A stretch of DNA of 64,000 nt from Candidatus Chloroploca asiatica. Its GTDB lineage: Bacteria; Chloroflexota; Chloroflexia; Chloroflexales; Chloroflexaceae. Below are positions 124 through 59,548 of the stretch, in pieces. The stretch is from the NCBI RefSeq assembly GCF_002532075.1, contig NZ_LYXE01000090.1, forward strand, positions 1 to 64,000, given 5' to 3'. Below the pieces are notes generated by a model, which ran no database searches, was not told where the DNA came from, and saw nothing but the letters and a program-made list of their open reading frames with translations. The position numbers were made by a program, and so were the translations under genes. Position 1 is the stretch's first letter. Every line of letters starts with the position of its first letter.

Positions 124-152
124 CACTCCTATGGCCTATCCAGATAGGAGTG
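124..152 (-). terminator. Gene-end hairpin after the double-GNAT gene
   Basis: A perfect 9-bp inverted repeat (CACTCCTAT at 124-132 with ATAGGAGTG at 144-152, 11-nt loop) begins five bases beyond the stop codon of the minus-strand GNAT gene. No U-tract follows, so intrinsic termination is possible but unproven. It may instead protect the 3' end of the transcript. Confidence 0.5.
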
Positions 153-157
153 CGATA

Positions 158-1228
158 TTACACTACTGGATTGAGAACCTGCGCCTGCACGGGCTGGTCG
201 AGCGGTGCGCCAAAGGTGGCTGACGTCAACGGAATGGCAGGAGCAACAGAACGCTCAAGCAGGACAAGACCAGGCTGTCGCTCGAAGCCGTGGTTGAGGT
301 TAATCGCGAGCATCCCGGCATTCGTATTTTCTACCCAGGTGACAATGCGGCGAAAGCCATGCCGCTGGGCGTAGTCAATGGTCAACAACTTCATCACGCG
401 GGCCAGACCCTTGCCACGATACGCGGGCAATGTCCCGGTCAATTCCTGATAGAGCGTATCGGGGGTATCGGCGCGACCTTGGAGAAAACTGAGGCCAACA
501 TACTGGTCGCCATCGCGAATGACAAAGAAGGCATCAAAGAGTGCCTGGGGTGATTCAATCGCAAAGGCCGCGAACTCCTCACGCGTCGTAAAGATTTTTT
601 CAGGGATTGGCACCTCGCGGGTTAAGGCAGCGTGGAGCGTATAGATCTTCTCGAGCCAGTCGGGATCCTCAGCACGACACTCGTCCAGGGTCATCATCCG
701 CAAACCATGGTCGGCCTGCAGGCGTTCAAGACGCGGGGCGAGAGCGACCGGTGCGGTGTGCGCAACCTCAAGCACAAAGGGATTGCTGCGCATCTGCTCG
801 GTGAAGCCATGCCGCTCAAAAGCTTCGCTCAATTCAGGGGCTTGTTCAGGCACAAAAATCCAGAGCGCACGCCCGCCAAGTTCCGCCAGATCCGCCTCCA
901 TCTGACGAAGGAGCGCGGTACCGATCCCACGGCGACGCAGGGCGTGGTGTACCCGAATCACAATCCAGTAGGTCCCAGGGTTTTGCAGCCAGGTCACGGG
1001 GAAGAAGTGGCCGACGCCGATGGTGGCGCCGCTTGCATCCTGGGCGAGGTAGCGCCACGAATGGGCACCGCTGCGCTCGCAGGCGCGGTCGAAGGCGTGC
1101 AGATCATCAAGGCTCGGGGCCTCGTTGTCAAAGGGCTGTTCAACACCTGCCAGCCGATAGAGATCGGCAAACGCTTCATAGTCGGCAGGGGTCATCGTTG
1201 CACGCCGGATGGTCAAGCCAGGTAACAT
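158..1228 (-). CDS. Double GNAT-domain acetyltransferase
   Basis: The 356-residue product has two tandem Gcn5-related N-acetyltransferase folds. The first (about residues 5-160) has the acetyl-CoA-binding core RRRGIGTALLRQME. The second (about 190-340) has a core around YRGKGLARVMKLL followed by NTNAGMLAINLNHGF. This tandem layout is like mycothiol-synthase-type GNATs, but nothing shows the substrate, and no mycothiol genes are nearby. I chose the ATG at 1228 because the protein then begins with the first GNAT strand and a GAGAAAGG ribosome site lies upstream. The longer frame to 1369 adds a non-conserved 47-residue leader. It lies 162 bp downstream of purD on the same strand and may be read from the same transcript. 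Confidence 0.8.
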   Translation of the reverse strand: MLPGLTIRRATMTPADYEAFADLYRLAGVEQPFDNEAPSLDDLHAFDRACERSGAHSWRYLAQDASGATIGVGHFFPVTWLQNPGTYWIVIRVHHALRRRGIGTALLRQMEADLAELGGRALWIFVPEQAPELSEAFERHGFTEQMRSNPFVLEVAHTAPVALAPRLERLQADHGLRMMTLDECRAEDPDWLEKIYTLHAALTREVPIPEKIFTTREEFAAFAIESPQALFDAFFVIRDGDQYVGLSFLQGRADTPDTLYQELTGTLPAYRGKGLARVMKLLTIDYAQRHGFRRIVTWVENTNAGMLAINLNHGFERQPGLVLLERSVAPAIPLTSATFGAPLDQPVQAQVLNPVV

Positions 1229-1390
1229 ATAAGGCCTTTCTCGCTTTGACTGGGCGCGCCAACCGGCAAGCGGGTGAGGGTCGCACTCCCTTCCGCACAT
1301 CAGCTGACACATCACGGCGACCAGTTCACAGAATAGGTGTGATGTCCACCCATACAGTAGCATGCGCACGCACGTCTGGCAAGAGGGTTT

Positions 1391-2635
1391 TTACTCTGCA
1401 CCAATATCAGTGCGATAGTATTTGCCGTCAAACTTGATTCGTTCGGCATATTCATACGCACGTTTGCGCGCTCGGGCCAGGGTGGTACCTACACCAGTGA
1501 CGCCAAGCACGCGCCCGCCATTGGTGCAAAGCCCGCGCCCACCCAGGGTCGTGCCCGCGTGAAAGATGATGACCTGATCATCGTCAATTGCTTCGACCCC
1601 GCTGATCTGGTCGCCCTTACGTGGTTTGCCGGGGTAGCCCTCGGCACAGAGCACAACACAGACGGCATAGCCCCGTCGGCGCCGTAGTTTCTCGGGGTTG
1701 AGCCCGCCCACCGCACAATCGTAAAGCACCTCAAGAAAATCGCCTTCAAGCAGCGGCAGGATCGCCTGAGCTTCAGGGTCACCAAAACGTGCGTTGAACT
1801 CGAGCACCTTTGGACCAGCATCGGTCAGGATCAGGCCACCATAGAGGACACCGCGGAAGGGAATTTCACGGGCAGCCAGTTCGTTCACCACCGGCTGCAA
1901 GCATTGCTGCACGATCTGATCAAGCAGCGCTGGTGGCACATCATCAACGGGGGCCATCACACCCATCCCCCCGGTATTTGGGCCTGTGTCGCCCTCACCA
2001 AAACGCTTGTAGTCACGGGCTGACGGTAGGGGCAAGAGCCGTTGCCCATCACAGAGGGCCATTACCGACACTTCCCGCCCAAACAGGCGCTCTTCAAGCA
2101 ATAAATGGCTGCCCGCCGGTGTTGCGGCGAGGTGATGGATCGCATCAATTGTTTCGCCAATCGTTTCAGGCACGATGACACCCTTGCCCAAGGCAAGCCC
2201 ATCAGCCTTGACGACCCAACTTCGCCCGCTCGCGAAGACAAAAGCCTCGGCATCGGCGGGGTTGGTAAAGACGTGCGACGCCGCTGTTGGCACACCAGCT
2301 GCCGCCATAATTTCTTTGGCAAACGCCTTGCTACTCTCGATGCGCGCCGCAGCGGCTGTTGGCCCAAAGGCCGGAATGCCCGCAGCAAGAAAACGATCAA
2401 CAATACCATCGGCAAGCGGATTATCTGGACCGACAACGAGCAGATCAATGCCTTCGCGTTCGGCAAGATCAACGAGTGCCCCAATGTCGGTCAGTGGAAA
2501 GGGGACGTTTTTGCCATAGACGCCTGTGCCAGCATTGCCAGGCACACACAGCAGCCCGCGCAGATGTGGTGACTGGGCAATCTTCCAGGCCAGGGCATGT
2601 TCGCGCCCCCCCGAACCAATGAGCAAAACCTTCAT
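1391..2635 (-). CDS. purD: Phosphoribosylamine-glycine ligase
   Basis: PurD joins glycine to 5-phosphoribosylamine with ATP, the second step of de novo purine synthesis in the cytoplasm. The 414-residue product starts with the family N-terminus MKVLLIGSGGREHALAWK and has the central ATP-grasp domain (about residues 100-320). Visible motifs include KADGLALGKGV and, near the metal site, LEFNARFGDPEAQAILPLL. Length is normal for the family. It starts 15 bp downstream of the CHAT-NACHT gene on the same strand, so it may be co-transcribed with it. No other pur gene is in the window, so the neighbourhood is not a purine operon. Confidence 0.97.
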   Translation of the reverse strand: MKVLLIGSGGREHALAWKIAQSPHLRGLLCVPGNAGTGVYGKNVPFPLTDIGALVDLAEREGIDLLVVGPDNPLADGIVDRFLAAGIPAFGPTAAAARIESSKAFAKEIMAAAGVPTAASHVFTNPADAEAFVFASGRSWVVKADGLALGKGVIVPETIGETIDAIHHLAATPAGSHLLLEERLFGREVSVMALCDGQRLLPLPSARDYKRFGEGDTGPNTGGMGVMAPVDDVPPALLDQIVQQCLQPVVNELAAREIPFRGVLYGGLILTDAGPKVLEFNARFGDPEAQAILPLLEGDFLEVLYDCAVGGLNPEKLRRRRGYAVCVVLCAEGYPGKPRKGDQISGVEAIDDDQVIIFHAGTTLGGRGLCTNGGRVLGVTGVGTTLARARKRAYEYAERIKFDGKYYRTDIGAE

Positions 2636-2650
2636 AGCACAACCTAAGCC

Positions 2651-5600
2651 CTATAGACGTGAGCCTGAGCCAAGTATAACATACTGGCGTTGTTGGATCG
2701 TGGCAACGGTCTGATACCAATGTTCGCGTAGTTCGAGCGGCCAGCTAGGTACGCGATGGCCCAGATCACGCATGGTCGTCGCATCACCGATCCACGCAAG
2801 CGCCTCGATGGCTTTGCGTCGTAAGTAGAGGTCATGGTCGGCACGGTCTGGTCGACGCGCTGCCACGGTAAAGTCGCCCAGCGCCAGTGGTGGAACTGGC
2901 TCGGCAGCAGCAAGGGTCTGAATGAGTTGTTTGAGTGTAGGCCCCTGGCTGCCATCAACCAGCGGCACATGGCGTTCGGCAATGCCAACCCCGATCCAGG
3001 CCAGTGATTGCAAGGCTTTCGCTTTGATCACCTGCCCCGGATTGGTAATAAGCAAGCGGATCAACCAGTCGACAACCTCGCTGTCGGTCGCCCGTAGACG
3101 CCCCGCAAGATAGGCCAGTTGCTGTGCGGCACTGTCGGCAACCGTCGGGTTGTACCGAATCAAGACCCGGAGGAGCCTGATAACATCCTGTGGGTGAAAG
3201 AGGGTCAGCGCATCAGCCGCAGCCCACATCGTATCCTGCCAATCCTCGCTGATGACCTGCTCGGCGGTGTCGTCAGGGCTCAGAATAACCCGCAGCAAAT
3301 GTCGCGCATCAAGCATCCGCTTTAGGCGGGTGTCAATCATGTCACCGAGCGCAAAGGCCGCCAGCGCCCGTTCTGGGGCCGAGGGCGAGGTATGCAACAA
3401 GGTATGCAACTCGTTGCGACCGGCACTCCCCTGTCGCCAGATCCCCATAAAACGGAGCAAGGTCTGGTCGTCACGCAACTCACGCAACGTCGGAGGGCTG
3501 ACGCCTGCCCCAGGCAAGGCATTGGTGAACGATCCTGCTACGGTTGGCAACCCGGCTGAACGTGGCACAGCCGGTTCGCCCGCCACATTGGACGGTGCTT
3601 TGGCTTCATCAGCGAGCGCGGCAAGATAGATCGTGCGCAGGGCGCGCGCGGCGGCAATGCGAACATTTGTATACTCGTAGCGCGGCCCCGAGGCGCTCGG
3701 GCGTACCCGTTCAATCACGAGACGATGCAACTCGTGACGCACCTGGGGGTACTGCAAGCGTCCCAGCGCCACCACCAGTTGCTCGCGCCGCTCGGCTGAC
3801 GGCTCACGCGTACTGCGTAACCTGAGCACACACGCATCTAGCAACTCCGAGCGCAAGGCCGGATCAAGCCGTGCCTCTTGCTGCGGCGCAAGCGCTTCGA
3901 GGCAACGTGCCGCCATGAGCGCATGGCCGTCACTGCCAGCGCGAATGGCCGAGGCAAGCAACCTGAAGAGTGGGGTGAGATCGTTGAGCATCCCAACTAG
4001 GGCATAGATGACCTCTTCCCACCAGAGCATAAGCTCCTGGTTGGCACACATCGCGATGATATCAGCGAGGCGTTCCTGGCGATCCGCACGGTTCGCCAGG
4101 GCGACGGCGGCACAGTAGGCTTGCAGGTGACTATTGACAAAGCGAGCGGCACTGCTGCCGACGCCGGTCAACAGACGCGCCGCCCGCAACAGGTCGTACA
4201 ACTCTTCGAGGCTATAGTCGCGCTGATGGCGCACGCGTGCCAGCGTGCGAAAGATTGTTGCCAGACTCAGGTGCTCGCGATGCTCCCAGCAACTCTGCCA
4301 GGCCAGGGCGATCAGGCTCGTGCGGGCAGCGGCCCCCAGGCTAAACCGTCGATCAAGGGTGCCAAGCATGCGATCGAGGTAGCTCTGTACCAGTTGATTG
4401 CGGGTAAAGCCATCGGGTGTGGCACTCGTCAGTTGCTCGATCAGCAAGGTCAAGAGACTCGGGTCGCTTGCGAGATTGAGGAGCCGTTTGTCGCGGATCT
4501 GTCGGTAGAGGAGGGCGGCGTTTGACGCATCACGTTGCTGTAGATAGCCAAGGATCTGACGCTCGCCAAGTGGCTGGATCACCAGCACAGACGCCCTGCT
4601 GAGATGGGGGCCAGGATAGCTGTCTTGCGCCGAGGTGACAATAAATCGTTCGTTGGGAAGCCGCTGTGCCAGGCGCATCAGTTCACGGGCGGCTTCACTG
4701 CGCGCACGTTCGGGGAGCGTATCAAGGTCGTCGAAGAGCAGCACAAACCGTGGTGGGCCTTCAGGTTCGCGGGCAGTGTGAGCGTGACGCATCGTTGTAC
4801 CGAGGAACTCGCCGAGGGCCGGTGTAAGCGCACTCACCTGCTCGACAATCTGGCGTTCCAGCCGCTGCTGACCGCGCTGCTGATCATAGCCAATCAGCGA
4901 AATGAAGATCCCAGGGGGCCGCGTGACATCCTGGGTCACCGCCTCGGCCAGTTGGTAGGCCAGGCGGCGCAAGACCGTTGTTTGTCCCGAGTGAGGCGGA
5001 CCAATCAACGCGACGAGATTCGTGCTCGGTGACCTGACAAGCCTCCGTTCTGACCGCAGATGCAAGCCAAGGGTCTGGTCAAGCGTCTCGATCGCCCCCA
5101 TTGCGGCTGGCGCATCTTCGGGTCGCACACGCAACAAATGCCAATCCTGCCCAGCGGCAACCTGCATCACCGCAACATCAATATAGGCGTCGCCACGCCA
5201 ACGCGCAAACTCAGGCTCACGCAAAATGGCCGCCACATACTCCAATTGCGCATTAGGCAGAAAGATTTGCCCGCTGGCATACCGCATATAGAGCACCGGC
5301 GTACTCCACCCAGTTGCCTCGGGGTTGAAGATACGTCGGCGGGCACTATTGACGGCAAAATCAATGGTGCCATCACGCAGCAAAACGTCACTCAGGTGGT
5401 GGGTAAAACTCCGGGCCAACACCACCTCGATCAAGCGTTGCATCGCAAGCACAGCAGGCACCCCGCTCTCGATCAAAAGACGGGTTGCCAAGCTATGCAA
5501 TGCTCCCGCGACGGCACTATTGCAGGCGACCATCAAGACCAGTGAAAGCCGGTGGCTCACGGGCAAGGTGCGGAGCAGGCGAACCAGCGTATTGCTATCA

Positions 5601-6370
5601 TAGAGCAGAGCGCGTCGTGTCTGAGGTTCTTCAAGCACGAGCCGGGTGCCCAGTTCAGGGTGAAACAGACCGTGTCCATAATAGAGCAACACATCATACC
5701 CCGTCTCAGCAGCGGGGGCCTCGGCATCGAGGGTTCCACGAAGCAACGCCGTGCGCAGCGCTTCAGGCGTCGCCAGGGGCAAGACATCACAACGCAACTG
5801 ACCAGCAGCTATCGCGGCACTAAAGCGCGTCTCAAAATCACGCTGCTCGGCCTCACGATCAAGCTCGGCGAGGTGCCAGCGGGCGAGATCGACGGGTGAC
5901 GCTAGCACCATCAGCATGCGGATAGGGCGACGGGCCAGGGGGCGGCCTTCGTCCAGTTCGGCACTTTCGACATACCGTGAAAAGAGAATGCGTGGATCGA
6001 CCGCCAGCGGCCGTGGAGGTTCCAGGCCGCTCGTATCATCAAAATGCATCAACTCCCAGGGGAGTGCGTGCAACGCGGGGGCTGCCGGATCGAGGGCCAG
6101 GCGGAGCCGAAGCTGGTCGTTCCGCGCATTGATGGCCGCCCAGGTCTGTTGAAACATCAGCGCCAGCGGCCCACTGAAGAGTTGATGAAAAAGGCGGAGC
6201 CCGGTCGCAACGAGGGTTTGCGGATCGGATGCATCAGGCACCGTCTCGGAGTCAAGCGTCAGCGTCGTACGCTCACGCCGACCACTGGCGAGCCAGAGGT
6301 CAACGGTATAGCGTTGCGGCGCACCATCGGGATGGCGCAGCACACGGACAAACATATCCTCAATTGCCAT
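2651..6370 (-). CDS. CHAT protease-NACHT-helical repeat protein
   Basis: The 1,239-residue product has three parts. Residues 1-370 form a CHAT (caspase-like) domain with the PWEL motif near 104, the catalytic His in YYGHG (about 233) and the catalytic Cys in VACNSA (about 283). Residues 450-690 look like a NACHT/STAND NTPase with Walker B LLFDDLD (about 544-550) and NERFIVTS after it. The Walker A is GPPHSGQT (457-464), with Gln in place of the invariant Lys. The rest is alpha-helical and HEAT-like, suited to ligand or partner sensing. Such proteins are generally threshold-activated proteases in stress, signalling or phage defence. I chose the ATG at 6370 (AGGA upstream) over an in-frame TTG at 6376. 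It overlaps the upstream GGDEF gene by 11 bp. The target is unknown. Confidence 0.85.
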   Translation of the reverse strand: MAIEDMFVRVLRHPDGAPQRYTVDLWLASGRRERTTLTLDSETVPDASDPQTLVATGLRLFHQLFSGPLALMFQQTWAAINARNDQLRLRLALDPAAPALHALPWELMHFDDTSGLEPPRPLAVDPRILFSRYVESAELDEGRPLARRPIRMLMVLASPVDLARWHLAELDREAEQRDFETRFSAAIAAGQLRCDVLPLATPEALRTALLRGTLDAEAPAAETGYDVLLYYGHGLFHPELGTRLVLEEPQTRRALLYDSNTLVRLLRTLPVSHRLSLVLMVACNSAVAGALHSLATRLLIESGVPAVLAMQRLIEVVLARSFTHHLSDVLLRDGTIDFAVNSARRRIFNPEATGWSTPVLYMRYASGQIFLPNAQLEYVAAILREPEFARWRGDAYIDVAVMQVAAGQDWHLLRVRPEDAPAAMGAIETLDQTLGLHLRSERRLVRSPSTNLVALIGPPHSGQTTVLRRLAYQLAEAVTQDVTRPPGIFISLIGYDQQRGQQRLERQIVEQVSALTPALGEFLGTTMRHAHTAREPEGPPRFVLLFDDLDTLPERARSEAARELMRLAQRLPNERFIVTSAQDSYPGPHLSRASVLVIQPLGERQILGYLQQRDASNAALLYRQIRDKRLLNLASDPSLLTLLIEQLTSATPDGFTRNQLVQSYLDRMLGTLDRRFSLGAAARTSLIALAWQSCWEHREHLSLATIFRTLARVRHQRDYSLEELYDLLRAARLLTGVGSSAARFVNSHLQAYCAAVALANRADRQERLADIIAMCANQELMLWWEEVIYALVGMLNDLTPLFRLLASAIRAGSDGHALMAARCLEALAPQQEARLDPALRSELLDACVLRLRSTREPSAERREQLVVALGRLQYPQVRHELHRLVIERVRPSASGPRYEYTNVRIAAARALRTIYLAALADEAKAPSNVAGEPAVPRSAGLPTVAGSFTNALPGAGVSPPTLRELRDDQTLLRFMGIWRQGSAGRNELHTLLHTSPSAPERALAAFALGDMIDTRLKRMLDARHLLRVILSPDDTAEQVISEDWQDTMWAAADALTLFHPQDVIRLLRVLIRYNPTVADSAAQQLAYLAGRLRATDSEVVDWLIRLLITNPGQVIKAKALQSLAWIGVGIAERHVPLVDGSQGPTLKQLIQTLAAAEPVPPLALGDFTVAARRPDRADHDLYLRRKAIEALAWIGDATTMRDLGHRVPSWPLELREHWYQTVATIQQRQYVILGSGSRL

Positions 6371-7598
6371 GGGCAACTGTCCTTGTGACTAGCATATGTT
6401 CGACATGGTTCTTCCCACCTGCTTTAGCCTTGTAGAGCGCGAGATCGGCCAGTTTGATCACATTCGCCAAAGACTTTTCATCGCCAGTATAGGTTGCAAT
6501 ACCGATACTAATCGTCACATACGCACTGGCCTCGCTTGACTTATGAGGAATGCGCAGGGCCTCGACATTTGCGCAGAGCAACCCACCAAGCTCGAGCGCA
6601 CCCTCGACGCCAGTGTAGGGCAAGAGAATGCCAAACTCTTCACCGCCATACCGGGCCACCAGATCACCAGGGCGTTTCAAGACCTGCTTGAGCACCTGGG
6701 CCACTTGTTTCAGACACTCATCGCCTGCGGGATGACCATAGGTATCATTATACGCCTTAAAATTGTCGATATCACAGATCGCAATCGAGAGAGGTACCTT
6801 ATTGCGTTTGCTATGCAAATATTCACGTTTGACCTGCTCATCGAAATAACGACGGTTATGGATACGCGTCAACCCATCGAGATCCGAGAGATCTTCCAGG
6901 ATCTTGATCGTATGGCCTAATTTTGAGCCAAAAACACCGATCAGGCTACCCCCTACCACACCAAAAAAGAGGTGACTGAAGAGCAACGCCCACGGCATCG
7001 AAAAGGCAACCGGAAACGAGACACTGATCCCGCCGCGGATATCACCAACCTGATAGCCCTGCTTTTCATGGCACTGCAAACAACTCTGCTGCGTAATCAG
7101 GGGAGCCATATACTGAAAAAACATCGTGTCGCCGTCCTGGGCATAGCCTGTATACTCGGTCTTGACACGCTCTTCAAAGATCCGCAGCGCTTCGGCTTCC
7201 CAATCTTCAGGAGCATTCGCCGGACGAATCGGGTTCAGACTGGTAATATGCAGATTGATATTGTCTTGTTGATTCGCAAGTTCGGCAATCAAGCGGGTCA
7301 TATAGGCTGGATTGATCAGGGTCAACATCGTGCCATCAGTCGTCGTCAGATCGCGATGGGCAACCTCAAGGTAGGGGTTCGGTTCCACCTCGTCTGAGAC
7401 CGGCATATAGACCCCGCCGTGCTGTGAATTCCACGCACGGGTGGTGACAATCAGGTCGAAGATAACCCGGCCATTTTGCAGATAAATGTCGTGCTGCTTC
7501 TGGCGTACCTGGACAATATTCCAGGCCGCCGAAAGGCTGATCAGAACGAGCCACCCGATGACTCCGGCAATGATGTACGGTCTGGCTTTGCTTGTCAT
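6360..7598 (-). CDS. Haem-binding sensor diguanylate cyclase (DUF3365-GGDEF)
   Basis: The 412-residue membrane protein makes cyclic di-GMP from two GTP. A first membrane helix (about 8-28) leads into an extracytoplasmic DUF3365/Tll0287-like sensor. This domain has one CxxCH motif (CLQCH, 173-177), so covalent c-type haem is likely. A second helix (about 203-225) connects to a GGDEF domain with an intact active site GGEEF (318-322) and an RxxD product-inhibition site (RPGD, 309-312) exactly five residues before it. The start is the ATG at 7598, with GGAG about 10 nt upstream and a sensible N-terminal helix. The longer frame to 7757 adds an implausible leader. Its end overlaps the CHAT-NACHT start, so the two are translationally coupled. 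Redox or gas sensing is inferred. Confidence 0.9.
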   Translation of the reverse strand: MTSKARPYIIAGVIGWLVLISLSAAWNIVQVRQKQHDIYLQNGRVIFDLIVTTRAWNSQHGGVYMPVSDEVEPNPYLEVAHRDLTTTDGTMLTLINPAYMTRLIAELANQQDNINLHITSLNPIRPANAPEDWEAEALRIFEERVKTEYTGYAQDGDTMFFQYMAPLITQQSCLQCHEKQGYQVGDIRGGISVSFPVAFSMPWALLFSHLFFGVVGGSLIGVFGSKLGHTIKILEDLSDLDGLTRIHNRRYFDEQVKREYLHSKRNKVPLSIAICDIDNFKAYNDTYGHPAGDECLKQVAQVLKQVLKRPGDLVARYGGEEFGILLPYTGVEGALELGGLLCANVEALRIPHKSSEASAYVTISIGIATYTGDEKSLANVIKLADLALYKAKAGGKNHVEHMLVTRTVAHGN

Positions 7599-7692
7599 AG
7601 CGCTGCTCCGTGTGTGCGTGAACGTATGGCTCTGCTCTGTCCCTGCGTACGCGAGGAGGTGAACTAGCGGCCCTGTGGCCTCAGCTGTTTGG

Positions 7693-7739
7693 CATTCGCT
7701 AGAACAAAGCCAACTACGTTGGCTTTGTTCTAGCGAATG
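7693..7739. repeat. 22-bp perfect inverted repeat
   Basis: The arms at 7693-7714 and 7718-7739 are perfectly complementary over 22 bp around a 3-nt loop. The element lies between the GGDEF start and the LuxR terminator, so it is upstream of one gene and downstream of another. There is no U-tract. It belongs to the class of very long intergenic hairpins seen repeatedly in this window (16.7, 19.6 and 50.4 kb). Confidence 0.8.
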
Positions 7740-7778
7740 TAGCCGTGTTTCAGTCAACCTATTTGTTGGTATCTCGTT

Positions 7779-7839: not shown

Positions 7840-10590
7840 CTAGCGCGTAGCAGGTGCATCCAACGCAAGCAGGCCCAGTGCGTGGGCCGTCATCACAGCT
7901 TCGCGGCGACTATGCACGCCAAGTTTGTCGTAGATGGTCGTAGTATGCTTCCGTACGGTATTAGGGGCAATCACGAGGTGCCGGGCAATTTCTTTATCGG
8001 ACCAGCGCAAGGCGAGCAGACCGAGAATTTCGGCTTCGCGGGTTGTGAGCAACTCGGGGAGGCTGCCCCGGGCCAGCACCCGGGTTGCAGGTGTCGTTTC
8101 GTCTGGATGGGAGCCACTGGTGGCAAAGAGTTGCTGCAGATAGGGCCGCGCAAGGCCTCGCTCACGCAGGGCATCGAGGAGTGGCCTGAGGCCTGAGCCA
8201 AGATCGAGCAGCGTGCGGACAAAGCCAGCGGCAGAGGCACGCTGTAGAGCCTGTTCGAGCAGGGTCAGGGCCTGCTCGGTCTGGCCCTGGGCATGGCGCA
8301 CGACGGCTTGCATCGCAAGACCACTGATCTGCAAGCGCGTCTGGGGCACCTGGGCAACTTTAGCAAACCATGACGCCAGGAGCAGATCGGCCTGCCTCAG
8401 GCTGACCAGATCACCCGCAGCCACCAATGCCTGAACCTTGCTCAGGCAGGGAATGCTGACCGAAAGCATAAATCCGGGATGCAAATGATCGACAGCGATC
8501 CCTGCGGCACTGCACAACGCCGAAGCCACATCACCCCGCGCCAGTGCCACCTGAACCGCACAACTCAGCGCCTGATGCCGCAAAAAGACCCCACCGACTT
8601 CATTGGCAAAGACGAGGGCTTCCTGCGCAAAGACCTCAGCTTCGGCGAGCGAGCCGCGGGCCAGCGCAATCAGGGCCAACCCGATCACCCCATTGCTATA
8701 CCCAGGGTAAGACACTTTGTATTTGCGCCTGGCGAGCATCTGAAACTGAGCCTCTGCCGCAGCAAGATCGTTCCGTTCGTAGGCCACCATGCCCAGGCTA
8801 TACGCCGCATAGCCGAGCCAGAAATCACTTGACTGGTTGCTAACTACAAAATCATATAACTGTTGCGCATAGTCCTGCTGCGCCGATAGATCGCCGATCA
8901 GATGGGCCATCCAGCAGAGCCCGGTCGCACGACAGAGAGGCTGTTGCGGGCGCAAGGCGGCGAGCGTAGCGGGCAGATCGGCTTCCAACAACGCAACCCC
9001 CTCAGCAAAGCGGTTGGCCCCTGCATAGGCAAGACCGAGTGCGAGCAGCACCTGCGTACCAAGGGCAGGTGTTGGGCCAAGCTTGAGCGCTACCTCGAAC
9101 GAACGGATTGCCTTGGTAGCGTCACCCTCCCACAGGGCAAGGATCCCACGCAAGGCAGCAAGATCAGCCTGAAACCGCTCCGTCGAAGGCAACGGATCGT
9201 GCGTACCAGGTGTGGCAAGCAATTGATCAATCTGCGCCAGACGCCGCTGGAGTTGCAGGAGATCGCGGCCAAAGATTGCGAGGCGAGCCGCGATCAAGGT
9301 CAAGCCTGGGCGACGATCGATCACGTGTGATGGCAGGCGTTGCAACCAATAGTCTGGAGAAGTTGGCAACACATCCTGGCCCATTGTCGGCATCAACAAC
9401 TGCTCAATCAGCCTAGCGGCCCCATCCTCATTGCCAGCAGCGAGCAAATGACGGAGGGCCTCTTCATCAAATCCCTGGGCCTGAAACCAGTCGGCAGCAC
9501 GCTGGTGTAGCAGCGCAAACTGTGTCTCACCATATTGAGACTGGGCGTAGCGCACAAGCAGATCGCGAAAGAGATGATGAAACCGATACCACTGGTGGGC
9601 CTCATCAAGCGGAATCACAAAGAGATTGGCGAGCAGCAACGTCTGAAGACGACCTTCGGCAGCATAGATCGCCTCAGGTGTCCCAAGCAACGCCGCACAC
9701 AACCCGGCGCAGAACCGCTCGGGAACGGCCAGGGCCAGCAAGGTCTGCTGCATCTCGGCAGGCTGATGTGCCAGCACCTCATCGGCCAGATATTCGGCGA
9801 TCTGGCGTGTGACAACGGAAAAAGACTGGGCCGATGCCATCGAGTCGCGCTGGGCCAGGGCCGCCAGTTGCACCGCAATCGCCCAGCCGTCGGTCTGTTC
9901 TTGTAACGCATCAACATAGGGTGACGGTGGAGGCGCACCCTGCAGGTTGGTCAGCAACGCTGTCGTCTCGGCAGGAGTAAAGCGCAACGCATCGGCGCGA
10001 AGCTCAACAAGTTGCTGCTCAGCACGCAGACGGGCCAGAGACAGCGGCGGATCAGTGCGCGAGATCACCACCAGACGGCACGAGGGGGGCAGATGGCGCA
10101 CAAAATAGGCCACAGCCTGATGGATTGGCTCAGACGTGAGCATGTGGTAATCATCGAGCACCAGGGTTACCTGGTCGGTGAGCGTATTCAGATCAACGAG
10201 CAGTGCCTGAAGGAGTACATAGGGCGGCGGGAGTTTTGGTGCGGTAAAGAGATCGCGTATGGTCGTAAGCGGTTGCTCGATGGCCTCTTCGATCGCACCG
10301 GCAACCAGGGCCAGGAAACGCTCACTCGCTTGATCATATTCATCGAGGGTTACCCAGGCAAACCGTGAACGAGCATGCGCATCCCGCGTTGCCTGCGCTT
10401 CCTGGTGGTAAAGCCACTGGGCCACCAGGGTTGACTTGCCAAAACCCGCCGGAGCCACGACCAGCACCAGTTTTGCATCAGGCAGAGCTTCCACAGATGG
10501 AAACAATCGTGTACGCTCAACCCACGCCTCGAGTCTCTGCGGAGGGCGCAGCTTTGTGGGTACGAGCAGCACGAATGGATTGACAGCCAA
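7840..10590 (-). CDS. LuxR-family LAL/MalT-like transcriptional regulator
   Basis: The 916-residue product is a STAND-class regulator. An N-terminal NTPase has Walker A APAGFGKST (about 46-54) and Walker B LVLDDYH. A long helical TPR-like middle (about 400-800) follows, then a C-terminal LuxR helix-turn-helix (about 850-905, with TTREAEILGLLA and APNTVRKHTTTIYDKL). Proteins of this class bind an inducer and ATP, oligomerise, then activate promoters. The start is probably a TTG at 10590 preceded by GAGGA; the spacing is short, so it is uncertain. The gene is divergent from the MFS-peptidase block across a 277-bp gap and is a plausible regulator of it. The inducer is unknown. Confidence 0.9.
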   Translation of the reverse strand: MAVNPFVLLVPTKLRPPQRLEAWVERTRLFPSVEALPDAKLVLVVAPAGFGKSTLVAQWLYHQEAQATRDAHARSRFAWVTLDEYDQASERFLALVAGAIEEAIEQPLTTIRDLFTAPKLPPPYVLLQALLVDLNTLTDQVTLVLDDYHMLTSEPIHQAVAYFVRHLPPSCRLVVISRTDPPLSLARLRAEQQLVELRADALRFTPAETTALLTNLQGAPPPSPYVDALQEQTDGWAIAVQLAALAQRDSMASAQSFSVVTRQIAEYLADEVLAHQPAEMQQTLLALAVPERFCAGLCAALLGTPEAIYAAEGRLQTLLLANLFVIPLDEAHQWYRFHHLFRDLLVRYAQSQYGETQFALLHQRAADWFQAQGFDEEALRHLLAAGNEDGAARLIEQLLMPTMGQDVLPTSPDYWLQRLPSHVIDRRPGLTLIAARLAIFGRDLLQLQRRLAQIDQLLATPGTHDPLPSTERFQADLAALRGILALWEGDATKAIRSFEVALKLGPTPALGTQVLLALGLAYAGANRFAEGVALLEADLPATLAALRPQQPLCRATGLCWMAHLIGDLSAQQDYAQQLYDFVVSNQSSDFWLGYAAYSLGMVAYERNDLAAAEAQFQMLARRKYKVSYPGYSNGVIGLALIALARGSLAEAEVFAQEALVFANEVGGVFLRHQALSCAVQVALARGDVASALCSAAGIAVDHLHPGFMLSVSIPCLSKVQALVAAGDLVSLRQADLLLASWFAKVAQVPQTRLQISGLAMQAVVRHAQGQTEQALTLLEQALQRASAAGFVRTLLDLGSGLRPLLDALRERGLARPYLQQLFATSGSHPDETTPATRVLARGSLPELLTTREAEILGLLALRWSDKEIARHLVIAPNTVRKHTTTIYDKLGVHSRREAVMTAHALGLLALDAPATR

Positions 10591-54058: not shown

Positions 54059-56092
54059 ATGCCAGCGAAGCTAAAAACGCCCACGAAGGGCACAACGGTG
54101 GCCGAAGCCGCCACACATAATGGGTTGGCCGCCTTTGGTGAGGGACGGCAGCGCGTCTTGATTGAACACGTTACCCCCCAGGTTGATGCAGGGCATTATC
54201 CGATCAAACGAGTTGTCGGTGATCTCGTGACGGTCGAAGCTGATATCTTTGCCGATGGGCACGATGTGCTCGCTGCTGTGTTGCGCGTGCGCGGCCCCGC
54301 TGATCAGTCCTGGCACGAGATGCCGATGACGCTTCTCGGCAATGACCACTGGCGCGGTGTCTTCAGTGTTGAGACGATAGGTACCTATACCTATACCCTG
54401 GTCGCCTGGATTGATCGTTTTGCCACCTGGGAACATCAGTTGCACAAACGCGTTGAGGCGGGGCAAGAGGTGCAGGTCGATCTGTTGATCGGCGCAGCCC
54501 TGGTCGATGAGGCAGCAGCACATGCACCTGATCCGGTGGCCGCAACGCTGCACGGTTTCGCCGCAGCCTTGCGTGCGGGTGACGCCGAAGCTGCCTTTAC
54601 CCCTGAACTGGCCCGCCTGATGAGCCTACACCTGCCACGCCAATTTGCGACAGCCTTTGAGCGCGAATTGCATGTCACAGTTGATCGCCCGCTGGCACGC
54701 TTTTCGGCATGGTATGAACTCTTTCCCCGTTCGGCTGCGCTTGAGCCAGGGAAGCATGGGACATTTATGGATGTAATTGCTCGCTTGCCCTATGTGGCCG
54801 AGTTGGGCTTTGATATCCTCTATCTGCCCCCGATTCACCCGATTGGCCGCCAGTTCCGTAAGGGCAAAAATAATAGTGTCACGGCGCTGCCTGGTGAACC
54901 TGGTAGCCCCTGGGCGATCGGCGGACCTGAAGGCGGCCATAAGGCGATCCATCCTGAACTGGGTACCCTTGAGGATTTTCACGAACTTGTCGCTGCAGCA
55001 CGAAGCTATGGCCTCGAGCTTGCCCTCGATATTGCCTTTCAGTGTTCGCCTGACCATCCCTATGTGCGTGAACATCCCGAATGGTTCCGCGCACGACCCG
55101 ATGGTACCATCCAGTATGCCGAGAATCCACCGAAAAAGTATCAGGATATCTATCCCTTCGACTTTGAAACCAGTGATTGGCAGGGTCTCTGGTATGAGCT
55201 CAAGAGTGTTTTTGAGTACTGGATTGCCCAGGGCGTAACGGTCTTTCGCGTTGACAACCCCCACACCAAGAGTTTTCGTTTCTGGGAGTGGTGCATTGGT
55301 AGCCTGAAGCGCGACCATCCTGAGTTAATCTTTCTCTCTGAGGCGTTTACCCGCCCCCGAGTGACATATAATCTTGCCAAGCTTGGTTTTACCCAAAGCT
55401 ATACTTATTTTACGTGGCGCACCCAGCGTTGGGAACTGGCCGAGTATCTGCTCGAGTTGACCCAGACCGAGATCAAAGATTATTTTGGCCCGAATTTCTG
55501 GCCCAATACGCCTGATATTCTGACGCCTCAGTTCTATCCCGGGCACCGCTCGGTCTTTCTGACCCGCGTGGCCATGGCAGCGACAATGATGGCAAGCTGG
55601 GGCATGTATGGCCCCGTCTATGAACTGATGCAACACGTGCCTGCACAGGGCCGGGAAGAGTATCTCAATAACGAGAAGTATGAGATCCGCCACTGGGATC
55701 TCGACGACCCAAACAGTCTGCGTACCTTCATTGCACGCCTGAACCAGATCCGTAAAACGAATTTGCCGCTTCAGCGCAATGCGAACGTGCGCGTGCATCC
55801 GGTCGATCGCAACTTTGCGCTGAACGAACAACTCTTTGCCTATAGCAAAACAACCGATAATGCCACTCACATCATTCTCGTTGTGGTCAATCTTGACCCC
55901 GAGCAGGTACAGAGTGGCTGGGTGCAGGTACCAGTCGATGAGTGGCACCTCGGAGCAACTTATCTTGCTCACGATCTGTTGCGCAACGAACGGTATGTGT
56001 GGCAGGGAGAATATAATTATGTCTCACTTGATCCTGCGACGATGCCCGTCCATATCTTCCGGCTAGAACGCCAGGAGGAACTGCCTAGATAG
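54059..56092 (+). CDS. glgE: Maltosyltransferase GlgE
   Basis: GlgE transfers maltose from maltose-1-phosphate to the end of an alpha-1,4-glucan. The 677-residue GH13_3 enzyme has the N-terminal and dimer domains (about 30-220). The catalytic barrel carries the nucleophile Asp399 in VFRVDNPHTKS and the acid Glu428 in FLSEAFTRPR, positions close to those of characterised GlgE. QSYTYFTWR and the C-terminal beta domain complete it. The ATG at 54059 has GGAG right upstream. It is 34 bp ahead of treS-mak, which should produce its substrate. Confidence 0.97.
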   Translation: MPAKLKTPTKGTTVAEAATHNGLAAFGEGRQRVLIEHVTPQVDAGHYPIKRVVGDLVTVEADIFADGHDVLAAVLRVRGPADQSWHEMPMTLLGNDHWRGVFSVETIGTYTYTLVAWIDRFATWEHQLHKRVEAGQEVQVDLLIGAALVDEAAAHAPDPVAATLHGFAAALRAGDAEAAFTPELARLMSLHLPRQFATAFERELHVTVDRPLARFSAWYELFPRSAALEPGKHGTFMDVIARLPYVAELGFDILYLPPIHPIGRQFRKGKNNSVTALPGEPGSPWAIGGPEGGHKAIHPELGTLEDFHELVAAARSYGLELALDIAFQCSPDHPYVREHPEWFRARPDGTIQYAENPPKKYQDIYPFDFETSDWQGLWYELKSVFEYWIAQGVTVFRVDNPHTKSFRFWEWCIGSLKRDHPELIFLSEAFTRPRVTYNLAKLGFTQSYTYFTWRTQRWELAEYLLELTQTEIKDYFGPNFWPNTPDILTPQFYPGHRSVFLTRVAMAATMMASWGMYGPVYELMQHVPAQGREEYLNNEKYEIRHWDLDDPNSLRTFIARLNQIRKTNLPLQRNANVRVHPVDRNFALNEQLFAYSKTTDNATHIILVVVNLDPEQVQSGWVQVPVDEWHLGATYLAHDLLRNERYVWQGEYNYVSLDPATMPVHIFRLERQEELPR

Positions 56093-56126
56093 CGTGCTGA
56101 CCGTTTTTGATGCCCTTTAGGAGAAC

Positions 56127-59100
56127 ATGGCGACAGTAAAGCAGACCCGACCGAGCCGGACGCCGCAGGTTTTTGCGCATGATCCGCTCTGGTATAAAGA
56201 CGCGATTATTTACGAGGTACACGTTCGAGCCTTCGCTGATAGTGATGGCGACGGGATTGGCGATTTCAAGGGGCTGACGAGCAAGCTCGATTATCTGCAG
56301 GAACTAGGCGTGACCGCCATCTGGTTGTTGCCCTTTTATCCTTCGCCCCTCAAAGATGATGGCTATGATATCGCGGATTACACCGATGTTCACCCATCAT
56401 ATGGCGATATCGCCGATGTACGCCTCTTTATTCGTGAGGCGCATCGGCGTGGCCTGCGGGTCATCACCGAATTGGTGTGCAATCATACCTCTGATCAACA
56501 TCCCTGGTTCCAGCGTGCGCGCCGTGCCCGTCCCGGTACCTCCCAGCGGGATTTCTATGTCTGGAGTGATACGTCCCAGAAGTATAGCGATGCGCGCATT
56601 ATTTTCAAAGATTTCGAGACCTCAAACTGGACCTGGGATCCGGTTGCCGGGGCCTACTATTGGCATCGCTTCTACAGCCACCAACCTGACCTGAACTTCG
56701 AGAATCCGGCCGTGCATCGGGCGATCTTTAAGGCGATGGAGTTCTGGCTTGATATGGGGGTGGATGGTCTTCGCCTTGATGCCATCCCCTATCTCTATGA
56801 AGAAGAGGGGACAAATTGCGAAAATCTGCCCCAGACGCATGTCTTTCTGAAGAAGTTGCGCCAGCAACTCGATGCCAAATATCCGGGACGTATGTTCCTC
56901 GCCGAGGCAAACCAGTGGCCGGAAGATCTGATTTCCTATTTCGGGGATGGCGATGAGTGCCATATGGCGTTCCATTTCTCGGTGATGCCCCGCCTCTATA
57001 TGGCGGTACATCAAGAGAATCGCTTCCCGATCATTGATATTATGCATCAGACGCCGACGATTCCTGAGGCATGCCAGTGGGCGATCTTCCTCCGTAACCA
57101 CGATGAGTTGACCCTCGAGATGGTGACCGATGAAGAGCGCGACTATATGTATCGTTTCTATGCCAAAGATCCGCAGGCCCGGATCAATCTTGGCATTCGT
57201 CGCCGCCTCGCCCCGTTGCTCGGCAATCATCGGCGCAAGATCGAACTGATGAATGGCTTGCTCTTTTCGTTGCCCGGCACGCCGGTGCTCTATTATGGCG
57301 ACGAGATTGGCATGGGTGACAACATCTATCTCGGCGATCGCAATGGGGTGCGTACCCCCATGCAGTGGGCCGGGGATCGCAATGCTGGCTTTTCACGCAC
57401 GAATCCACAACGCCTCTTTCTGCCGGTCATCACCGACCCCGAGTATCACTACGAGATGGTCAATGTTGAAAACCAACTTGCCAATCAGCACTCGTTGCTC
57501 TGGTGGACGCGACGGCTGATCGCGCTGCGGAAACGCTATAAGGCGTTTGGCCGAGGTACACTCGAATTTCTCCATCCCGAAAACCGCAAGGTGCTCTGCT
57601 TTATTCGGCGCTATGAAGAAGAGACAATCCTTGTTATTGCCAATCTCTCGCGGTTTGTGCAAGGGGTTGAACTGGATCTTGCGGCCTTCCGGGGGATGAT
57701 GCTGGTCGAGATGTTCGGCCAGGTCGAGTTTCCACCGGTGGGCGACCATCCCTATTTCATCACCGTTGGTCCGCATAGTTTCTACTGGTTTAGCCTGGTG
57801 CCCCAGCGTGCCGAAGGTGTGCGCAGCGATGGAAGCGGACTGGTTGAGACTGCGGATGTGCCGTTACTCACCATTGAAGCCGGTGGTTGGGACGCAATCT
57901 TTTATGATGGCCGCCAGGCACAACTGGAACGGGTCTTGCCTGATTATTTGCGGCCACGTCGCTGGTTTGGGGCCAAGGCACGTCGGATGAAGCATGTGCA
58001 TATTACCGATGTGGTGATGGTGCCTCATGATGATACGCTCTCCTACCTTGTCCTGGTAACGGTTCAGTACACCGAAGGAAGCGCTGAAACCTATCTCTTG
58101 CCGATGGCGTATGCCGAAGGCGAACGGAGCCGCGATATTCTCGCCGATGCACACCACGCGGTCATTGCGCGTCTGCGGGTCAACGATCAGCAGGAAGAAC
58201 CTGGTATTCTCTATGAACCCTTGATTGACCGTGCGTTCTGTGCGATGCTGCTCGATCTCATCGTTGGTCGACGCCGCTTGCGCAGTGAACATGGGGCCGA
58301 ATTGACGGCAGCAACAACCCGAGCGCTACGTGGCCTCGTTGGTGATGGGGCGGGCCTTGAAGCTTCCGTGATGCGTGGTGAGCAGAGCAATACCTCGATC
58401 AACTTTGGTGGACGGATGATTATGAAGCTCTTCCGCAAAGTTGATACCGGCGTCAATCCCGATCTCGAAATTGGACGCTACCTCACCGATGAGGCTGGCT
58501 ATGTCCATACCCCGCCACTGGCTGGGGCGATCGAGTATACACGGCCTGGCGAAGAAGCGATCACGCTGGCCCTGTTGCAAGGCTTTGTGCCCAATGAGGG
58601 CGATGCCTTCGATTTTGCGATTGATGTCCTCAATGGCTATTTTGACCATGTGCTGGTTGAGCCCGAACTCGTCGCACCAAAGACCGAGGTGACGATTGCG
58701 GCGCTGCTTGATGCCGACGTTGAACCACCAGCCCCCGGGGGTGAGTTGCTCAGTGCCTATCTCGACTCGGCTCAGTTGTTGGGCAAACGTACCGCCGAAT
58801 TGCACCTGGCCCTCGCACGCGGTAAATCATCGGCGTTTGCGCCTGAACCCTTCTCCCTGCTCTATCAACGCTCGCTCTACCAGTCGGTGCGCAGTTTGAC
58901 CGCCGAAACCCTCCAAGGCTTGCGCAAGGTGCTGCCAGGCTTGCCCGAAAATATCCGCGAAGATGCCAGTCAGTTGCTGACGCTTGAGTCAGAGTTGATG
59001 GCGCGCTTCCGCCGGATTAGTGCGACGAAGATCGAGGCCACGCGAACCCGGATTCACGGTGATTACCACCTCGAACAGGTGCTTTACACTGGCCTTGATT

Positions 59101-59507
59101 TTATGATTATTGACTTTGAAGGTGAGCCGATCCGTCCGATTAGCGAGCGCCGGATTAAGCGTTCACCGCTACGTGATATCGCAGGGATGCTGCGGTCGTA
59201 TCAGTATGCAGCCTATTCCAGCTATTTCGGGCGCCTCCAATCGACTGCGCTGTCGCCCGAAGAGACGGCACGTCTGCGCCAATGGGCCGATTTCTGGGCC
59301 TTCTGGGTTGGTGCCGCGTTCCTGCGCAGCTATCGTGAACATACTGAAGGGGCTTCGTTTGTGCCCGCTGCACGGGGCGATCTTGAGACCCTCCTTGAGG
59401 TCTTTTACCTCGAAAAGGCAGTCTATGAGGTTGCCTATGAAATGAATAACCGCCCCACCTGGCTCAGTATTCCGCTTAGTGGAATTTTGCGCCAGATTAC
59501 AGGGTAA
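56127..59507 (+). CDS. treS: Trehalose synthase-maltokinase fusion
   Basis: The 1,126-residue fused enzyme isomerises trehalose to maltose and then phosphorylates maltose to maltose-1-phosphate. The TreS half (1-560) is GH13, with nucleophile Asp218 (GLRLDAIPY), acid Glu260 (FLAEANQWP) and FLRNHDE. The maltokinase half (about 580-1,126) has the cap domain (LPDYLRPRRWFGAKAR) and the kinase residues His977-Gly-Asp979 in RIHGDYHLEQ and IIDFEGEP. The fusion should hand maltose directly to the kinase. It lies between glgE and glgB. GGAG precedes the ATG. Confidence 0.96.
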   Translation: MATVKQTRPSRTPQVFAHDPLWYKDAIIYEVHVRAFADSDGDGIGDFKGLTSKLDYLQELGVTAIWLLPFYPSPLKDDGYDIADYTDVHPSYGDIADVRLFIREAHRRGLRVITELVCNHTSDQHPWFQRARRARPGTSQRDFYVWSDTSQKYSDARIIFKDFETSNWTWDPVAGAYYWHRFYSHQPDLNFENPAVHRAIFKAMEFWLDMGVDGLRLDAIPYLYEEEGTNCENLPQTHVFLKKLRQQLDAKYPGRMFLAEANQWPEDLISYFGDGDECHMAFHFSVMPRLYMAVHQENRFPIIDIMHQTPTIPEACQWAIFLRNHDELTLEMVTDEERDYMYRFYAKDPQARINLGIRRRLAPLLGNHRRKIELMNGLLFSLPGTPVLYYGDEIGMGDNIYLGDRNGVRTPMQWAGDRNAGFSRTNPQRLFLPVITDPEYHYEMVNVENQLANQHSLLWWTRRLIALRKRYKAFGRGTLEFLHPENRKVLCFIRRYEEETILVIANLSRFVQGVELDLAAFRGMMLVEMFGQVEFPPVGDHPYFITVGPHSFYWFSLVPQRAEGVRSDGSGLVETADVPLLTIEAGGWDAIFYDGRQAQLERVLPDYLRPRRWFGAKARRMKHVHITDVVMVPHDDTLSYLVLVTVQYTEGSAETYLLPMAYAEGERSRDILADAHHAVIARLRVNDQQEEPGILYEPLIDRAFCAMLLDLIVGRRRLRSEHGAELTAATTRALRGLVGDGAGLEASVMRGEQSNTSINFGGRMIMKLFRKVDTGVNPDLEIGRYLTDEAGYVHTPPLAGAIEYTRPGEEAITLALLQGFVPNEGDAFDFAIDVLNGYFDHVLVEPELVAPKTEVTIAALLDADVEPPAPGGELLSAYLDSAQLLGKRTAELHLALARGKSSAFAPEPFSLLYQRSLYQSVRSLTAETLQGLRKVLPGLPENIREDASQLLTLESELMARFRRISATKIEATRTRIHGDYHLEQVLYTGLDFMIIDFEGEPIRPISERRIKRSPLRDIAGMLRSYQYAAYSSYFGRLQSTALSPEETARLRQWADFWAFWVGAAFLRSYREHTEGASFVPAARGDLETLLEVFYLEKAVYEVAYEMNNRPTWLSIPLSGILRQITG

Positions 59508-59548
59508 ACTTCTCTAGATAGAAGTTCTGCCCATTTGACGAGGAATAT

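Follow-up and report, generated by a model that had tools for sequence, protein, structure and literature searches.

How can a protease be governed by a NACHT nucleotide-binding domain whose phosphate-binding loop (P-loop) has lost its lysine? The question is raised by a gene in the first 64,000 nucleotides of contig NZ_LYXE01000090.1 of Candidatus Chloroploca asiatica (the window, that is, the whole stretch analysed). The gene lies on the minus strand (2651..6370; ATG at 6370, stop codon at 2651-2653; a mechanical list of open reading frames [ORFs] opens this frame at a TTG two codons ahead of that ATG), genome searches return orthologues of it, and it encodes a 1239-residue protein that combines a CHAT (caspase-like) protease domain, a NACHT domain, and HEAT-like repeats. 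Activation of the NLRs (nucleotide-binding, leucine-rich repeat receptors) is usually described as an exchange of ATP and ADP. A first-pass annotation of the window had read the P-loop of this protein as GPPHSGQT, with Gln in place of the Lys, and had offered two explanations, a nucleotide-independent caspase-like switch and an inactive regulator of another copy. We consider it rather probable, on comparison of the family's sequences, that the protein joins a CHAT protease to a dismantled nucleotide switch, a pseudo-NACHT, that works without ADP/ATP cycling.

The Gln was confirmed and proved to be a property of the family. In the window protein, the Walker A motif occupies residues 457 to 464 (4979..5002, minus strand), and Gln463 is encoded by CAA at 4982-4984. 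We looked for orthologues with a protein search of 61 genomes and a profile search (E 1e-60) of the 41 genomes of the taxonomic family and found the gene in 37 of the 41, with no match in G015, G025, G017, and G019. Three of the 37 (G009, G018, and G023) yielded fragments without Walker A, which left 34 readable genomes (two sequences, L042 and L047, were assigned to G064 and G062 by matching coordinates). Position 463 is Gln in 32 of these, His in one (G010), Leu in one (G008), and Lys in none. The alignment with Chloroflexota homologues that the annotation had proposed as a check therefore bears out a conserved Gln, and its proviso that all close relatives might carry Lys does not hold. Both Gln codons occur (15 CAA and 17 CAG), showing that it is the residue and not the codon that is conserved. 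In a set of 26 rows less than 90% identical, Gly457, Ser461, Gly462, and Asp547 never vary, and 24 of the rows have Gln463.

The Lys is not the only residue of the switch to have been replaced. As controls we took the best Pfam NACHT match per genome from 30 genomes of the same 41, a choice biased toward canonical domains; orthologues of the CHAT-NACHT family sit lower on the same Pfam list (G016 and G026). A first control alignment had 22 rows, eight of the 30 being omitted, some for motifs missed by a regular-expression search, which on 29 controls found the sensor-1 Arg in 23 and the winged-helix His in 23. All 30 were then aligned, with the Lys of one (L160) established by reading its frame, and the counts used here are those of the 30-row alignment, which agrees with the first set. 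The Walker A Lys, the Walker B Glu, and the sensor-1 Arg are each present in 30 of 30 controls, and the winged-helix position is His in 27 of 28 readable rows (Arg in the other; two further rows have a gap). For the orthologues we used 31 rows from the 34 readable genomes, having removed L048 (the same gene as L145), replaced L022 with L148, and omitted the incomplete sequences of G011 (L030), G021 (L134), and G064 (L042). None of the 31 has the Walker A Lys (29 Gln, 1 His, 1 Leu), one has the Walker B Glu, and none has the sensor-1 Arg or the winged-helix His, the last position being Asn in 26, Tyr in 3, and Gln in 2. The omitted sequences read Gln, Ser551, Thr581, and Tyr746 (L030), Gln, Ser551, Ser581, and Asn746 (L042), and Gln only (L134).

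In the window protein, the Walker B motif LLFDDLDT (residues 544 to 551; 4718..4741, minus strand) ends in Thr551 where the control NACHTs have Glu, the sensor-1 position reads TSA (residues 579 to 581; 4628..4636, minus strand) with Ala581 at the place of the Arg, and the winged helix reads FVN rather than FxH, with Asn746 (codon at 4133..4135, minus strand) where the controls have His. What the orthologues keep is the loop itself (Gly457, Ser461, and Gly462 in 31/31, Thr464 in 29 with Ser in the other 2, Thr465 in 30) and the Walker B acids (Asp547 in 31/31, Asp550 in 27 with Glu in 4). Together the replacements thus remove as many as three positive charges as well as the Walker B acid, while the loop and metal-side residues remain, and the usual NACHT/NLR features (Walker A GxxxxGK[ST], Walker B Asp...Asp-Glu, sensor-1 Arg, winged-helix His) are missing from the orthologues, apart from the Glu of a single row. 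A profile of 40 family members (residues 371 to 925) aligned with the 22-control profile at an hhalign probability of 99.9 over 449 columns. The first-pass annotation had called both Walker B and the helical sensor intact. As to Walker B, this stands for Asp547 and Asp550 but not for the Glu; as to the sensor, it fails, the sensor-1 Arg and the winged-helix His both being replaced. Judged from these alignments, the annotation understated the extent of the change. It also overstated the effect of a single loss in holding that loss of the Lys normally abolishes ATP binding. According to the available text of a study that tested the roles of K232, E306, R351, and H522 in NLRP3 (PMC9633759), turnover relative to the wild type was 0.34 for K232A, 0.22 for E306Q, 0.10 for R351T, 0.17 for H522D, and 0.86 for H522R; K232A, which in vitro keeps that third of its ATPase turnover, fails in signalling.

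On the sequence evidence, the window protein is a CHAT cysteine protease and an NLR-type NACHT-winged-helix-HEAT module in one chain, with proteolysis as its predicted activity. The CHAT domain (residues 72 to 352; 5315..6157, minus strand) scores 79.5 bits against a Pfam cut-off of 24 and is supported by fold matches and by its catalytic pair, His233 (codon 5672-5674, minus strand) and Cys283 (codon 5522-5524, minus strand), which is intact, as the annotation had stated, and recurs in every one of the 26 non-redundant rows of the family. The NACHT core (residues 448 to 620; 4511..5029, minus strand) is recognised through Pfam, the hhalign result, and its NLR fold. The Pfam AAA_22 model is marginally above cut-off (27.4 against 27, residues 451 to 568) and the NACHT model below it (25.1 bits against 26.7, residues 452 to 611), a cut-off that the orthologues in G016 and G026 pass. 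There follow helical domain 1 (HD1), the winged helix, and a helical (HD2/ARM-like) part (residues 621 to 920; 3611..4510, minus strand), placed by the AlphaFold2 model and the NLR match with sub-boundaries set by analogy with NLRs, and C-terminal HEAT-like helical repeats (residues 962 to 1239; 2654..3487, minus strand), placed by a sub-cut-off HEAT_2 match (24.8 bits against 27.7, residues 1045 to 1124) and by model helices up to residue 1195. The nearest named relatives of the protein are from Candidatus Chloroploca mongolica (95% identity) and Chloroploca sp. Khr17 (94%).

The predicted fold agrees with this division. AlphaFold2 gave a mean predicted local distance difference test (pLDDT) score of 83.4 and a predicted template-modelling (pTM) score of 0.74 for residues 1 to 1195, and 88.0 and 0.87, respectively, for residues 371 to 925. 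The CHAT model is closest to SAVED-CHAT (8tl0; Z 23.9, root mean square deviation [rmsd] 2.0, 198 residues), with Csx29 and the TPR (tetratricopeptide repeat)-CHAT of Craspase at Z of about 21 to 23 and separase at about 21. Residues 371 to 925 matched NLRP3 (8wsm; Z 17.0, rmsd 6.7, 415 residues), NOD2 (5irn; Z 16.7, rmsd 6.5, 449 residues), and NLRC4 (8fw2; Z 16.6, rmsd 9.8, 434 residues), the large rmsd values probably being due to domain placement. A sequence-profile search returned no solved structure at E 0.01, and the absence of other families from the fold-match lists was not used as evidence. As modelled, then, the architecture is NLR-like, with a caspase on the same chain.

More distant relatives suggest that parts of the switch have come apart repeatedly. 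Further paralogues (A1 profile, E 1e-60 or better) occur in 3 of the 41 family genomes, all of one genus (the Oscillochloris-type G006, G028, and G032), each of which has two, a CHAT-bearing one with the P-loop GGSRISRS (Arg at the Lys position), in which the winged-helix His is retained (3/3), and a CHAT-less NACHT-HEAT protein with a Gln P-loop, in which the sensor-1 Arg is retained (3/3). In a scan that kept 80 of 411 stretches, we found three full-length distant homologues in metagenome-assembled genomes. Lys is present in the P-loops of L062 (Thermoflexia; GAAGMGKS) and L073 (Chloroflexi; GSHGMSKS), and Arg in that of L063 (Caldilineales); L062 retains the winged-helix His, and all three lack both the Walker B Glu and the sensor-1 Arg (alignment A2). 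Loss of parts of the switch therefore seems to have happened on more than one occasion, the Gln form being the one maintained through a family. The tree is midpoint rooted and its long branches meet, so it gives neither an order of events nor a direction for the Lys-to-Gln change; from the canonical NACHTs together with L062 and L073, we infer that Lys came first. Among 400 phylum genomes searched by profile, with two candidates per genome scored, there was no further full-length member outside the taxonomic family, and two matches with E values of 1e-40 or lower covered CHAT only; more distant members of the family may exist beyond those scored. In G006 (L129), the two paralogues adjoin with overlapping frames, the CHAT-less Gln form at 130-3543 (minus strand) and then the CHAT-NACHT with GGSRISRS at 3495-5909 (minus strand), and these neighbours, which have lost different parts of the switch, could complement each other.

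Of the two explanations that the annotation had offered, the first, a nucleotide-independent (or nucleotide-locked) caspase-like switch, is the better one, and it is strengthened by the joint replacement of the Lys, the Walker B Glu, the sensor-1 Arg, and the winged-helix His. Control of the protease probably does not depend on the residues that usually grip and split ATP. In the mechanism we propose, the NACHT domain would no longer cycle between ADP and ATP, and its P-loop skeleton would be retained for the fold or for the permanent hold of one ligand. Partner binding at the HEAT/winged-helix arm, together with oligomerisation, would hold or release the CHAT protease, and the protein's role would be a standing physiological job in these filamentous, photosynthetic members of the Chloroflexus group rather than phage defence.

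Several observations weigh against a pseudo-NACHT. The main difficulty is the fixed P-loop skeleton: a pocket with no use would be expected to drift, yet all 31 rows have Gly457, Ser461, Gly462, Thr/Ser464, and Asp547, which suggests that it may still bind something. Nor does the loss of one residue establish that a site is dead, since in NLRP3 a third of the turnover is left in K232A and most of it in H522R (PMC9633759, available text). The Gln itself is not strictly required, as two orthologues carry His or Leu instead, and no conserved partner gene was found among the neighbours scanned.

The same fixed P-loop Gly, Ser, and Thr residues and Asp547 speak for an explanation that we regard as possible but doubtful, namely, that the pocket is still a nucleotide switch working by other chemistry, the phosphate charge being supplied from elsewhere, as it is in WNK kinases. 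Arg499, Arg503, or Arg629 might supply it: the first two are present in 30 of 31 orthologue rows and the third in all 31, and the Lys-bearing distant homologues L062 and L073 lack all three. However, these three were chosen post hoc from twelve conserved Arg columns, the CHAT-less Gln paralogues lack Arg499 and Arg629, and a relocated charge would leave the sensor-1 Arg, the Walker B Glu, and the winged-helix His still gone. A wider form of the idea, also rather unlikely to our minds, is that a neutral pocket (GxxxSGQTT, the Walker B Asp, and Asn746) is itself under selection and would take another ligand, or a nucleotide by way of the relocated Arg499, Arg503, or Arg629, with CHAT controlled without an ATP/ADP cycle.

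An ordinary phage-defence STAND (signal transduction ATPase with numerous domains) protein of the bNACHT or Avs type that merely has an odd P-loop is improbable in our estimation. CHAT domains serve in bacterial defence, and the predicted fold here is NLR-like. NACHT domains serve there too (PMC12169576, available text). The gene, however, is evenly distributed and mostly single copy within one taxonomic family, and its HEAT part is under purifying selection in the pairs measured. By a simple pairwise Nei-Gojobori count, the ratio of nonsynonymous to synonymous substitution rates (dN/dS) for the whole gene was 0.12 to 0.13 in two Chloroploca pairs and 0.08 to 0.27 in five other pairs; for the HEAT part, the Chloroploca pairs gave 0.08 and four of the others no more than 0.30 (the L027/L028 pair was not computable). 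The gene is under purifying selection, with no sign of a fast-changing sensor in the HEAT part in the pairs measured. A subset of the neighbours was scanned, and among these there were no defence genes, nor did PADLOC give a strong model, its only match (13.5 bits, 29 residues) having an E value of 0.0095. The defence or stress setting that the annotation had assumed therefore finds no support in the neighbours scanned or in the even distribution.

The neighbouring genes that were scanned have housekeeping or general regulatory domains instead. By Pfam, those scanned close by in the window encode GNAT, GGDEF, and LuxR/MalT proteins, and those farther off include arginyl-tRNA synthetase, carbamoyl-phosphate synthase, biotin carboxylase, a histidine kinase, and a GlgE-type glucan cluster (54059-61705, plus strand; maltosyltransferase, an alpha-amylase/maltokinase-cap fusion, and a branching-enzyme-like protein). 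Two stretches of the protein encoded at 161-1390 (minus strand) match GNAT acetyltransferase domains. Immediately upstream, a Tll0287-like/GGDEF gene (6360-7757, minus strand) overlaps the CHAT-NACHT ATG by 11 bases. These two genes adjoin in three of three Chloroploca genomes but are not neighbours in any other genus examined; their coupling may therefore be a Chloroploca trait. Two genes away, a LuxR/MalT-type regulator (7840-10590, minus strand) has, read by eye, an ordinary Lys P-loop, APAGFGKST, and serves as a control within the window. We found no conserved operon partner, in that the Chloroploca neighbours (the double GNAT, GGDEF, and LuxR/MalT genes and an ORF that by eye we take to be purD-like) were not seen again in the other genera that we examined, except that one ORF in L127 clusters with the purD-like one. 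Outside Chloroploca the flanking genes differ and, where scanned, are of a housekeeping or general regulatory kind; those that recur in part include genes for aldehyde dehydrogenase, a histidine kinase, rho, AIM24, and 3-phosphoglycerate dehydrogenase. No MoxR or vWA protein was seen in the subset of neighbours given to Pfam.

The annotation's second explanation, in which the protein would itself be inactive and would regulate a working CHAT-NACHT paralogue, fits poorly, and we hold it to be very improbable. It could draw on the three genomes of one genus with further paralogues, but the other 38 of the 41 have none at E 1e-60, including the window's own, which gives a single match (more distant CHAT proteins are present in the family genomes). 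Moreover, the CHAT dyad is intact, and the paralogues that might be regulated have altered P-loops themselves, with Arg in the CHAT-bearing and Gln in the CHAT-less form. We rejected it for most genomes on the lack of a paralogue.

A sequencing error, which the annotation had considered and which would take one letter (CAA for AAA), or a decaying pseudogene, as the frame-split gene in G022 and G011 might suggest, can safely be dismissed, as Gln recurs in 32 of 34 genomes by two codons, dN/dS is well below 1 in seven pairs, and the profile-search matches are listed without an internal stop. The two split genes (L026 and L135) are both in metagenome-derived genomes and reflect decay or assembly error.

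In the literature searched, where most subscription journals fall outside coverage, we recognised no paper on this CHAT-NACHT family; Chloroflexi proteins with a caspase homologue and NACHT or NB-ARC have been noted earlier (PMC3501461, available text). A natural, long-conserved combination of protease, NACHT, and repeats would let one purified protein reveal what a NACHT domain does without a nucleotide cycle. As a CHAT protease of most of the Chloroflexaceae-type genomes examined, the protein is also a candidate for filament biology, alongside the cyanobacterial HetF. The HetF of filamentous cyanobacteria has CHAT, TPRs, and a membrane helix, with no NACHT named in the available part of its description (PMC8406250). 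Its model is the best NCBIfam match of the window protein, with which it shares the CHAT domain, but identity with HetF was rejected (50.2 bits against an equivalog cut-off of 1200).

Among proteins of known structure, SAVED-CHAT, Csx29/TPR-CHAT (Craspase), and separase share the caspase-like fold (Z 20.7 to 23.9) and the His/Cys dyad; those proteases respond to a cyclic nucleotide, to target RNA, or to control by the cell cycle, whereas here CHAT is attached to what we read as a pseudo-NACHT. NLRP3, NOD2, and NLRC4 share the predicted NACHT-winged helix-HD2 fold (residues 371 to 925, Z 16 to 17, about 410 to 450 residues) but differ in that four switch residues are replaced here, CHAT is in the chain, and HEAT-like repeats take the place of leucine-rich repeats. 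The closest precedents for an eroded site are iSTAND and iSTAND2, inactive STANDs of the MoxR-vWA ternary systems of multicellular bacteria, including Chloroflexi (PMC7159879 and PMC8195603, as far as the available text goes). These likewise are STAND modules with eroded nucleoside triphosphate-binding motifs, and the present protein is set apart from them, by description only, in that it is a single chain whose CHAT dyad is intact and whose P-loop skeleton is preserved. Similarly, rice Pb1, which lacks a P-loop, other degenerate plant NLRs, ADR1-L2, and P-loop mutants of NLRC4 work at least partly without a functional P-loop (PMC3478704, available text); Pb1, ADR1-L2, and NLRC4 are, however, eukaryotic helper NLRs whose chains contain no protease. 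Both inactive STANDs and plant NLRs without a P-loop were thus already known, and the present protein would add to them a conserved pseudo-NACHT fused to CHAT.

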